Positions 50,078 to 55,613 of a stretch of 64,000 nucleotides of DNA are shown here, one piece after another; position 1 is the first letter of the stretch, and the number at the start of each line of letters is the position of its first letter. The stretch lies in NCBI GenBank assembly GCA_026984935.1, contig JALSRD010000013.1, positions 1 through 64,000 on the forward strand, in the 5' to 3' direction. The DNA comes from Desulfobacterales bacterium (GTDB lineage: Bacteria; Desulfobacterota; Desulfobacteria; Desulfobacterales; JALSRD01). The notes beneath the pieces were generated by a model. That model was not told where the DNA came from. It searched no databases and worked only from the letters and a program-made list of their open reading frames with translations. A program made the translations under genes and the position numbers.

Positions 50078-50370
50078 GCCCCGGGCCGCCAAACGGCCGG
50101 GTGGGACGGATGGAAAACGGTTAGGCAAGGGATTCCGTCCGCGCAAGGCTCTTTTCCTTCAGGCCCTTACCGGCCGGCGCCGATTCCACCGGCATCACGC
50201 TGCGCACTCAAAAATCCCCGAGGCCCCAGACGGCGCCGCTTGACCCTATCTGCGCCGCGCGGACCGCAGCGGCCGTCCGCAGGTTCTTTCCGCCCCTTTC
50301 TGCGGCCAAATTATCTTCTAAAATTTATTGACATCAACTAAAAGGTGTTATATTTAGTTTACTTTGGATA
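50078..50370. other. Intergenic region upstream of tRNA-Gly
   Basis: The stretch between merR and tRNA-Gly holds no conserved gene. It is GC-rich and then becomes AT-rich at the tRNA promoter (50328-50356). I saw no clear terminator for merR. Confidence 0.55.
50328..50356 (+). promoter_or_regulatory. Promoter of tRNA-Gly
   Basis: A perfect TTGACA (50328-50333) is followed 17 bases later by TATTTA (50351-50356), or 15 bases later by TATATT. Transcription would start a few bases before the tRNA at 50371. Confidence 0.65.
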
Positions 50371-50446
50371 GCGGGCATAGCTCAGCTGGTAGAGTACAAG
50401 CTTCCCAAGCTTGGTGTCGCGAGTTCGAATCTCGTTGCCCGCTCCA
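50371..50446 (+). tRNA. tRNA-Gly, anticodon CCC
   Basis: The 76-base gene folds into a full cloverleaf. The acceptor stem is GCGGGCA paired with TGCCCGC, the D-arm GCTC-AGCTGGTA-GAGT, the anticodon arm CAAGC-TTCCCAA-GCTTG with anticodon CCC, and the T-arm GCGAG-TTCGAAT-CTCGT. The discriminator base is T and CCA is encoded. It reads GGG. The T73 discriminator is the usual one for bacterial tRNA-Gly. Confidence 0.96.
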
Positions 50447-50464
50447 AAACGCAAAGTCCGCCCT

Positions 50465-50630
50465 TTCGTTTATCGGGGTTTTAGGGTAGAGTTCTTACGG
50501 GTTTGCCGGCGGGAGCGGCTTTCTTCCTTGGGCATAAACGAACGGCATGTGACCTGAAGAGATAACGGTTCTCTTTTTTCGTCACATTCACCATTTAGAT
50601 GAGAGGAAACGGGCATTTGCCCGTTTTTTT
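50465..50630 (+). ncRNA. Structured RNA leader between tRNA-Gly and rimP
   Basis: Four pairings are visible. A 9-base TTCGTTTAT (50465-50473) pairs with ATAAACGAA (50534-50542). A 7-base ATGTGAC (50547-50553) pairs with GTCACAT (50581-50587) and encloses the small hairpin AAGAGA/TCTCTT (50557-50575) with a U-rich tail. The last is a terminator (50607-50630). The order suggests a leader that can choose between continuing and stopping before the rimP operon. No known class was recognised, and no folding program was run. Confidence 0.6.
50607..50630 (+). terminator. Terminator just upstream of rimP
   Basis: AAACGGGC (50607-50614) pairs with GCCCGTTT (50619-50626) around ATTT, and the run of T continues to 50630. 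It ends 26 bases before the rimP start with no promoter in between, so rimP-nusA-infB transcription from upstream must read through it. Confidence 0.85.
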
Positions 50631-50656: not shown

Positions 50657-51214
50657 GTGACGCGCAGGGGCGGGAAAAAGAAGAAAGCGCACCGGGGCAA
50701 CCCGCAGGGCGCGCGTTGGACGGAGAAACAGCAGGCGGCGATGGTCGCCCGCTGCCGGGATACCGCCCGTATGCTGTGCGAGAGCGAGGGCCTGGAACTG
50801 GTGCATATCGAATATCAGCGTGAATCGGCCGGCCGTGTGTTGCGCGTCTATATCGACAAGCCCGGCGGCGTGATGCTGGCTGACTGCGTCAACATCAGCC
50901 GGCAGCTGGGAGATTTGCTGGACGTTCAGGAGGACATCGACGTGGCGTACAGCCTCGAGGTTTCTTCGCCGGGCGACCGGCGCCCCCTGGGAAAGCCGGA
51001 AGATTTTGAAAGATTCAAGGGCAGGCGCGCGGAAATCAGGACACGCCACCCGATTCGCAATCGCAGAACGTTCAAGGGGGTCCTGCTCGGGCTGGTGGGA
51101 GACAGCGTCATGCTCCTGTCCGACGGTGCCGAACTGGCCATCCCCCACCAGGAGATCAGCCGCGCGAGACTGGCGAAAACAATTGGAGAAAACGGATGTT
51201 TATCACAGACATAA
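50657..51214 (+). CDS. rimP: Ribosome maturation factor RimP
   Basis: RimP helps 30S assembly. The 185-residue protein from the GTG at 50657 has a Lys/Arg-rich start, then GLELVHIEYQRESAGRVLRVYIDKPGGV, SRQLGDLLDVQEDI and YSLEVSSPGDRRPL, the RimP signature. The SH3-like C-domain follows (GVLLGLVGDSVMLL). The GTG start is preceded by a run of G (AGGGGCG). The gene overlaps nusA by 19 bases at its end. It is the first gene of the rimP-nusA-infB operon. Confidence 0.93.
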   Translation: MTRRGGKKKKAHRGNPQGARWTEKQQAAMVARCRDTARMLCESEGLELVHIEYQRESAGRVLRVYIDKPGGVMLADCVNISRQLGDLLDVQEDIDVAYSLEVSSPGDRRPLGKPEDFERFKGRRAEIRTRHPIRNRRTFKGVLLGLVGDSVMLLSDGAELAIPHQEISRARLAKTIGENGCLSQT

Positions 51215-52797
51215 AACGCGTTGTCGATCAAATCAGCCGGGATAAGGGCATCGACCGCCGTATTCTGATCAGCGCCCTCGAAGAAGCTCTGAAATCCGCG
51301 GCCAAGAAGAAATTCGGCAGCAAGATCGACATCGAAACCCAGTACGACGAACAGACCGGAGAAATCGAGATCTTTCAGTTCAAAGAGGTTGTCGAGACCG
51401 TCAACGACCCGGATATCGAGATCAGTATCGAAGAGGGCCGCAAGCTCGATCCGGGATGTGAAATCGGCGACAGCCTGGGAACCAAAATGGACACCTCGAC
51501 TTTCGGCCGCATCGCCGCCCAGTCCGCCAAGCAGGTCATCATCCAGAAAATGAAAGATGCCGAGCGTGACGCCGTCTACGCCAATTTCATCGACCGCAAG
51601 GGTGAAATCATCAACGGCATCGTACAGCGCATCGATCGCGGCGATATCATCGTCAATTTGGGCCCCACCGAGGGTGTGCTGCCGGTCAGGGAACAGGTCC
51701 CCAGGGAGAATTACCGCCGCGGAGACCGTATCCGGGCACTGATCCTGGACATTCTTTACGAAACCCGCGGTCCGCAGATCGTGCTCTCCAGAACGCATCC
51801 GGATTTCATGGTCAACCTGTTTAAAACCGAAGTTCCCGAAATCAGTGAAGGCATCGTCTCCATCATGGGAGCGGCCCGTGAACCCGGCGTGCGGGCTAAA
51901 TTCGCCGTTTCCTCCAATGACTCGGACATCGACCCGGTGGGCGCCTGTGTGGGAATGAAGGGTTCCCGCGTGCAAAACGTGGTGCAGGAACTGAAAGGCG
52001 AAAAGATCGACATCATTCCCTGGCATGTCGACGCCGCAAAATTTGTCTGCAACGCCCTGGCACCGGCAGAGATTTCACGGGTGATCATGGATGAAGAAAA
52101 CCGCTCCATGGAAGTCATCGTGCCCGACGAATTTCTCTCCATCGCCATAGGCAAACGCGGCCAGAATGTCCGCCTGGCATCCAAGCTGACGGGATGGCAC
52201 CTGGATGTAAAGAGCGAATCCCACTACAGCGAAACCATGCAAAGCGGCTATGACTCGCTGGTGGCCCTGGAAGGCATGACCATCAGCCTGGCCGATGCGC
52301 TTTACGAAAGCGGGTTTTACTCCGCCACCGAACTCAGCCGGGCTTCCGTGGCCGACCTGATGCAGATCCGCGATCTTGACGAAGAGACAGCTGCCCGCCT
52401 CATCCAGACCGCAGCCGAAAGCCTGGCGGCCGGAGAAGCCCAAAGCAGCGGCGACGATTCTTTCGCCACTGATTCGGCCCAGGACGAAAGCGCACCGGAA
52501 GCCACCGGGCCTGAAGAGGAAATAGACACCACCGGCGAAACGCCCGACGGGGATGTACCGCCTGCGGAAACTGCGGCGGAACCTGCCGGGGACCCCGATG
52601 AAACGGCCCCCGGGGACCAGACCCTGGAAACCGAGGCACCCGCAGCGGCGGCGCCGGCTGGAGCGGATGAGCCGGCACCGGGGACATCCGGTGACAGTGC
52701 ATCGCAGGAACCGGCGGCACCCGCTGAAGCACCGGCAGCCGGACACACCGGGGATATTGCCCCTGATGGCGAGGCGCCGGCAGATTCGCAGCAGTAA
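51196..52797 (+). CDS. nusA: Transcription termination/antitermination factor NusA, acidic C-terminal tail
   Basis: NusA binds RNA polymerase and modulates pausing, termination and antitermination. The 533-residue protein has an N-domain (residues 1-125), an S1 domain (GDIIVNLGPTEGVLPVREQ), two KH domains (GACVGMKGSRVQNVVQ and SIAIGKRGQNVRLASKL) and a helix-hairpin-helix unit (ADALYESGFYSATELSRA). After about residue 413 the sequence is Ala/Glu/Pro/Gly-rich, low-complexity and acidic, about 120 residues with no known fold. This extension is unusual in length. The gene lies between rimP and infB. Confidence 0.95.
   Translation: MFITDIKRVVDQISRDKGIDRRILISALEEALKSAAKKKFGSKIDIETQYDEQTGEIEIFQFKEVVETVNDPDIEISIEEGRKLDPGCEIGDSLGTKMDTSTFGRIAAQSAKQVIIQKMKDAERDAVYANFIDRKGEIINGIVQRIDRGDIIVNLGPTEGVLPVREQVPRENYRRGDRIRALILDILYETRGPQIVLSRTHPDFMVNLFKTEVPEISEGIVSIMGAAREPGVRAKFAVSSNDSDIDPVGACVGMKGSRVQNVVQELKGEKIDIIPWHVDAAKFVCNALAPAEISRVIMDEENRSMEVIVPDEFLSIAIGKRGQNVRLASKLTGWHLDVKSESHYSETMQSGYDSLVALEGMTISLADALYESGFYSATELSRASVADLMQIRDLDEETAARLIQTAAESLAAGEAQSSGDDSFATDSAQDESAPEATGPEEEIDTTGETPDGDVPPAETAAEPAGDPDETAPGDQTLETEAPAAAAPAGADEPAPGTSGDSASQEPAAPAEAPAAGHTGDIAPDGEAPADSQQ

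Positions 52798-52865: not shown

Positions 52866-55613
<2,748 letters not shown>

Follow-up and report, generated by a model that had tools for sequence, protein, structure and literature searches.

How does transcription reach an operon that stands behind a terminator? The question is raised by a Desulfobacterales bacterium in which tRNA-Gly(CCC) is followed by an intrinsic terminator and then by rimP, nusA and infB, all within the 64,000-nt stretch of contig JALSRD010000013.1 analysed here, referred to as the window (Table 1). An earlier note, made by reading the sequence, had described the interval between the tRNA and rimP as a multi-stem RNA ending in a terminator and had proposed a feedback attenuator for the operon, possibly of a new leader class. 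The terminator is read directly, as that note had said: its arms AAACGGGC (50607-50614) and GCCCGTTT (50619-50626) enclose an ATTT loop, its T-run ends at 50630, and 26 nt separate it from the rimP GTG at 50657. The tRNA-rimP interval folds better than its shuffles (z -2.4). A co-directional tRNA in front and the lack of a consensus promoter between the terminator and rimP suggest a tRNA-first operon of the metY type, in which tRNA and operon would be co-transcribed. The tRNA is the sole copy with a CCC anticodon found in the genome, the remaining glycine tRNAs found having TCC and GCC anticodons (30 of 44 tRNA matches typed).

Table 1. Positions of the elements of the tRNA-Gly(CCC)-rimP-nusA-infB locus in the window.
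Feature	Position	Strand	Basis
Probable promoter for the tRNA and all of the operon	50328..50354	+	TTGACA, 15 nt, TATATT read in the sequence
tRNA-Gly(CCC)	50371..50446	+	ARAGORN and Rfam
Antiterminator 5' strand, GUCCG-C-CCUUUCGUU, 9 nt 3' of the tRNA	50456..50470	+	Predicted pairing, coevolution
Stem 1 of the earlier note	50465..50542 (50465-50473 with 50534-50542)	+	Repeat present; absent as conserved structure in relatives
Core domain, diverged copy (P2, P3, P4)	50483..50594	+	Best match of covariance model R2 in the interval
Stem 2 of the earlier note	50547..50587 (50547-50553 with 50581-50587)	+	Repeat present
Core motif CUGAAGAGAUAA (most relatives: AUGAACAGAUAA)	50554..50565	+	ATGA-N5-TAA enrichment in relatives
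Antiterminator 3' strand, GAUGAGAGG-AAA-CGGGC; its 3'-most 8 nt form the terminator 5' arm	50598..50614	+	Predicted pairing
Intrinsic terminator, rimP-leader signature (CGGGC AUUU GCCCG, U-run)	50607..50630	+	Sequence and predicted fold
rimP, GTG start	50657..51214	+	ORF; homologues throughout the order
nusA	51196..52797	+	ORF; homologues
infB (IF-2)	52866..55613	+	ORF, by sequence

Relatives were gathered by searches within the order and in named genomes, which yielded 138 loci with an upstream region. This set counts some genomes twice and holds 123 distinct leaders, and 78 leaders were left after close copies and unusual lengths had been dropped. Sigma-70-like sites (at least 9 of 12 matches) lie upstream of the tRNA in 50 of the 78 relatives, compared with 18 in shuffles, mostly 11-18 nt before it; the 80 nt past the terminator contain such sites in 6 of 78 only, and none is enriched. 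Because the terminator stands between the promoter-like site and the operon, the sequence implies that expression of the operon depends on read-through, barring a promoter of an unrecognised type. The earlier note's picture of an attenuator reachable by read-through only is supported, with a promoter-like site ahead of the tRNA and none conserved past the terminator.

A terminator of the rimP-leader kind

Naville and Gautheret (2010; PMC2965389) described the rimP-leader as a terminator with an invariant GGGc..gCCC stem and a T-stretch, upstream of rimP-nusA-infB in most bacteria and 4-130 nt from the gene. For its general form they reported neither a visible antiterminator nor a larger conserved element. 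NusA was proposed as its regulator, RimP feedback was considered too, and the paper mentions, for some Gammaproteobacteria, an antiterminator of the upstream terminator. The window shares the position ahead of rimP-nusA-infB and the GGGc..gCCC stem with its U-stretch (ACGGGC AUUU GCCCGU, U-run), and its 26 nt to the gene lie within the published range. Because the terminator bears this signature, it belongs to the published rimP-leader kind and is not a wholly new leader class, so that the suggested novelty does not extend to the terminator itself. The window differs from the general form in having a coevolution-supported antiterminator made with the tRNA trailer, and many Desulfobacterales differ from it in having a conserved core domain.

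The hairpin is strictly kept within the order: tRNA-Gly(CCC) followed by [AG]CGGGC-N-GCCCGTTT with a variable loop was found at 138 of 138 testable loci. In the window's 3.9-Mb genome, the pattern CGGGC-N-GCCCGTTTT has a single occurrence, at this leader. A simple terminator scan reported nothing at 50607-50630, though the sequence and the predicted fold both show the hairpin clearly, probably because the scan lets the stem extend into the T-tract. Among 110 sampled loci from other classes of the phylum (L141-L250), a tRNA stands in front of rimP in 59, in every case tRNA-Gly(CCC) and no other, and 73 have a GGGC..GCCC terminator, in which a U-A or U-G pair often adjoins GGGC. A match to the fluoride riboswitch (L212:482-556, + strand, 49 bits) lies near one of these rimP leader loci.

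An Rfam scan of the window leader, which the earlier note had proposed, matched no family besides tRNA. The Gammaproteobacteria rimP leader, RF01770, gave no match at gathering score in the window or the relatives; as a positive control, E. coli K-12 matched it at 102 bits. By our reading, GUCCAGU of its consensus could form with ACUGGGC the kind of pair described below, which the Rfam structure does not draw; its tandem CCCCG..CGGGG terminator is absent from the window. T-box models likewise had no match at gathering score in the window or the relatives, and none at an E-value of 10 in the window leader.

Predicted pairing between the tRNA trailer and the terminator arm

Directly 3' of the tRNA, the trailer has the consensus AGUCCGCCUUUUC, which is complementary to the pre-terminator sequence and to the terminator 5' arm. 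In the window, GUCCG (50456-50460) is predicted to pair with CGGGC (50610-50614), and CCUUUCGUU (50462-50470) with GAUGAGAGG (50598-50606); the duplex has -22.8 kcal/mol, matched by 1 of 1000 shuffled trailers. This antiterminator, which shares the 5' strand of the earlier note's first stem, and the conserved core domain of the relatives had both been missed in the first reading. When the window is compared with its sister species, the best-kept leader blocks, AAAGTCCGCCCTTTCGTTT and ATGAGAGGAAACGGGCA, are the two antiterminator strands, the block of the 5' strand being near-identical.

Because long-range helices do not align, MAFFT and RNAalifold on all leaders recovered the terminator only, and strand swapping took the place of alignment. 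Covariation is demonstrable only for the helix adjoining the terminator arm, the arm itself being invariant; with the arm excluded, the leaders' own strands paired better than swapped ones (z -8.1). The same preference was obtained with 40-nt trailers (z -6.1) and with G+C-matched swaps (z -4.9; 0 of 2000 swaps as good), each across the 78 leaders. Four control pairings, namely the trailer with two other gap segments, the trailer with the post-terminator sequence, and the tRNA-upstream with the pre-terminator sequence, were null (absolute z below 0.8), while a further control, the middle against the last 14 nt, gave z -2.6, indicating that mild background effects exist. The shuffle and swap tests contain no phylogeny model; relatedness alone should not favour own over swapped strands.

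When transcripts were cut after the 5' arm, the arm paired with the trailer in the minimum-energy fold of 59 of 78 leaders, compared with 12.8 (maximum 17) when the gap was shuffled, 28.1 (maximum 37) when the trailer was shuffled and 48.8 (maximum 56) when trailers were swapped. Inclusion of the tRNA lowered the count from 59 to 47, and 13 of the 78 relatives have no such pairing. The motif GYYYG, which can pair over the full length of CGGGC, occurs in 48 of 78 trailers against 20.6 in shuffles (maximum 29), mostly 4-9 nt behind the tRNA. For the window transcript cut at 50614, the antiterminator fold reached -52.5 versus -48.2 with stem 1, and at full length the terminator state reached -62.4 versus -59.0. 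By these folds, which are equilibrium predictions without protein or kinetics, the antiterminator and terminator states of the window are modelled as a bistable pair.

The stems described in the earlier note fared differently. The 9-nt inverted repeat of stem 1, TTCGTTTAT (50465-50473) and ATAAACGAA (50534-50542), is present; of dinucleotide-shuffled versions of the interval, 2.5% contain a perfect 9-nt repeat. The relatives show no covariation for it (trailer versus middle, z +0.6) and keep the other pairing of the same 5' strand, which rules it out as a conserved structure. Stem 1 does appear, together with the terminator, in the window's full-length minimum-energy fold, where it is predicted to compete with the antiterminator for 50465-50470 and could possibly act as an anti-antiterminator in this genus. 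The second stem, ATGTGAC (50547-50553) with GTCACAT (50581-50587), also exists as a repeat, but a 7-nt repeat is found in 33% of shuffles; being within chance and without counterpart in the sister species, it was rejected as a meaningful structure.

In the other classes of the phylum, the trailer-arm pairing was found in 27 of 32 leaders, against 19 in shuffles (maximum 23), with a swap z of -2.0, and support for the antiterminator is weaker there than in Desulfobacterales. Some of these leaders have only ~15 nt between the tRNA and the terminator. Where the arm shifts from CGGGC to UGGGC, pairing with GAAGUGGG persists in trailers such as CCUACUUC or CCCGCUUCC. A second conserved leader type, CCCUU..GAGG followed by CUUCGAUUAGUGGA, occurs in other classes (L158, L161, L178, L191, L212, L228) and in one Desulfobacterales family (L031, L034, L038, L043, L047, L048, L053); in it, CCUACUUC within CUUCGAUUAGUGGA is able to pair with GAAGUGGG of the terminator arm.

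These pairings bear on three other explanations of the leader. The terminator could be leaky and unregulated, fixing the proportion of tRNA to operon mRNA, with the long trailer helix as a folding or stability element. A stem that is invariant while its surroundings drift would fit this explanation, as would the other-class leaders that are too short for a switch, but the helix specifically takes in the terminator arm and coevolves, and NusA-regulated read-through has been reported or proposed in E. coli, B. subtilis and S. agalactiae; we regard a leaky terminator as unlikely. Less probable again is an RNA-processing stem, in which the helix would be an RNase III or RNase E site freeing the tRNA and its contact with the terminator arm would be incidental. 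Although E. coli metY-nusA-infB transcripts have tRNA-releasing RNase III sites and the long P1-P2-P3 hairpin suits RNase III, such a site has no need to reach the terminator arm or to keep GYYYG in the trailer, and the other-class trailers pair even with the shifted UGGGC arm.

The terminator 5' arm CGGGC has the letters of the tRNA acceptor 5' strand GCGGGC (50371-50377), and an exchange of partners among the tRNA, the trailer and the terminator arm is possible in principle. Trailer GUCCGC might then pair with the tRNA strand GCGGGC and not with the terminator arm, as the six possible pairs and the repeated letters CGGGC would allow. We give this explanation the least credence of all, given that 70 of 78 folds with the tRNA included retain the acceptor stem, that other-class strands (CCUACUUC) match the terminator arm rather than the tRNA, and that the outer helix coevolves with the pre-terminator sequence.

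A core domain between the antiterminator strands

A core consisting of P2 (GGUAGA..UCUACC), P3 (GUGG..CCAC), P4 and the motif AUGAACAGAUAA, for which Rfam release 15 has no counterpart, is common to many Desulfobacterales. A covariance model built from 21 sequences (R1) matched further leaders with E down to 1e-18. In the 65-sequence alignment A3, which was fitted to the model, 61 cells were changed on both sides compared with 23.4 in shuffles (0 of 500), and the covariation score was 0.26 against at most 0.135 for slid partners. Pair counts in seed alignment A2 did not exceed those of its shuffles, and the alignment-free, G+C-matched swap test of P2 gave z -2.5. A scan of 76 genomes with model R2 matched 28, with one match each, all but one directly upstream of rimP and on its strand; the exception is in genome G050, where no rimP is detectable and the match precedes nusA. 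R2 had no matches in other classes.

The window's own core gave no credible match to R1 and 11.1 bits with R2 (E 0.3 in 1 kb), at the right position and strand and with many pairs broken. The sister species scored 35.7 bits with R2, a model that includes it, and 20.8 bits with R1, which does not. The window's copy is, to judge by these scores, diverged or degenerate.

The pattern ATGA-N5-TAA occurs in 40 of 78 relatives versus about 1 in shuffles. The motif reads ATG-NNN-NNN-TAA with fixed spacing (for example in L030, L022 and L092), with GTG in the sister species and CTG in the window. A leader peptide was considered and rejected: codons 2 and 3 show no amino-acid conservation, some copies have TGA as codon 3, the window has CTG, and no conserved ribosome-binding site was seen. 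We treat ATG-NNN-NNN-TAA as RNA structure, a minimal start-stop ORF being a lesser possibility. As a lead, AUGAACAGAUAA may resemble RNA bound by the KH domains of NusA, and the core domain of the relatives may be a sensor.

Loss of rimP and probable control of nusA-infB

In seven genomes of the order without a RimP match (G050, G275, G099, G176, G194, G260 and G293), tRNA-Gly(CCC) is retained and the terminator lies 34-258 nt ahead of nusA, which leaves no room for an intact rimP of ~550 nt; the core was found in six of them. G281, also without a RimP match, lacks the tRNA and has its terminator 50 nt ahead of nusA. The rimP-less genomes span four families (three with the tRNA kept) and are mostly draft assemblies. 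G050 consists of two contigs; in it (G050:C1:1099300-1102000, L291), 34 nt separate the end of the terminator from nusA, rimP having been deleted. Sequence resembling a rimP remnant was seen by eye between the terminator and nusA in some of the rimP-loss loci (L291, L300-L308 and L310). That the leader outlives rimP indicates that its targets are nusA and infB.

The same genomes weigh against a leader that senses RimP. This rRNA-interacting protein, the first gene product, would bind the leader and repress its own operon; the element is named for rimP, and such feedback was considered in 2010 (PMC2965389). With tRNA-Gly(CCC) and the terminator retained before nusA in at least seven genomes of three families without detectable rimP, six of them with the core, and with only 34 nt between terminator and nusA in the two-contig assembly of G050, RimP sensing is highly improbable.

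We therefore favour, as the probable function of this leader, a transcription attenuator of the nusA-infB operon built of two mutually exclusive RNA folds. Transcription would begin ahead of tRNA-Gly(CCC), and the trailer would pair with the pre-terminator sequence and the terminator 5' arm to give the antiterminator. Formed before the terminator 3' arm is made, it would allow read-through; if it were prevented or displaced, the GGGC/GCCC hairpin would form and transcription would yield the tRNA unit only. The attenuator is supported by the computed exclusive pairings, the coevolving antiterminator, the invariant stem, the promoter-like site before the tRNA only and the survival of the leader after rimP loss. 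As to the feedback attenuator of the earlier note, the architecture stands, and for the three species named above NusA feedback on the operon has been reported or proposed. From work in other bacteria we infer that the switch is regulated and that abundant NusA, by favouring the terminator hairpin, would tip it to termination. The rimP-less genomes lend indirect support to NusA as the proposed regulator.

The E. coli metY-rimP-nusA-infB operon resembles the window in its tRNA-first order and in having termination between tRNA and rimP, as well as in the read-through into nusA-infB and the NusA feedback that are proposed for the window. It differs in its initiator tRNA, where the window has tRNA-Gly(CCC), and in its two terminators and internal promoter P2. 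An analogous GUUCAGUUAU/AUAACUGGGC pairing is possible around the first E. coli terminator, which in E. coli alone is within chance (91 of 1000 shuffles). For the rimP/nusA leaders of B. subtilis and S. agalactiae, the accessible parts of the sources report or propose NusA-stimulated intrinsic termination in the 5' leader as autoregulation. Those parts mention neither a tRNA in front nor an antiterminator; the S. agalactiae leader is given there as ending 31 nt past its start site.

More tentatively, and with appreciable doubt, the leader could represent a conserved Desulfobacterota class of regulatory RNA, in which the tRNA 3' trailer serves as antiterminator for the NusA-operon terminator and the core (AUGAACAGAUAA, P2-P4) directly senses NusA or another operon product, coupling tRNA-Gly(CCC) with NusA/IF-2 output; a GUCC:GGGC antiterminator may also underlie the Gammaproteobacteria rimP-leaders. 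The matching antiterminator strand and the retention of the leader despite rimP loss appear to be new with respect to Rfam release 15 and the open-access literature searched. The rimP-leader has been called the most ubiquitous attenuator, and its switching mechanism had stayed open for want of a visible antiterminator. With a coevolving antiterminator strand, part of an arrangement with tRNA-Gly(CCC) that extends through the phylum, compensatory mutation can test the mechanism directly, and a leader that is kept after rimP has been lost narrows the candidate regulator.
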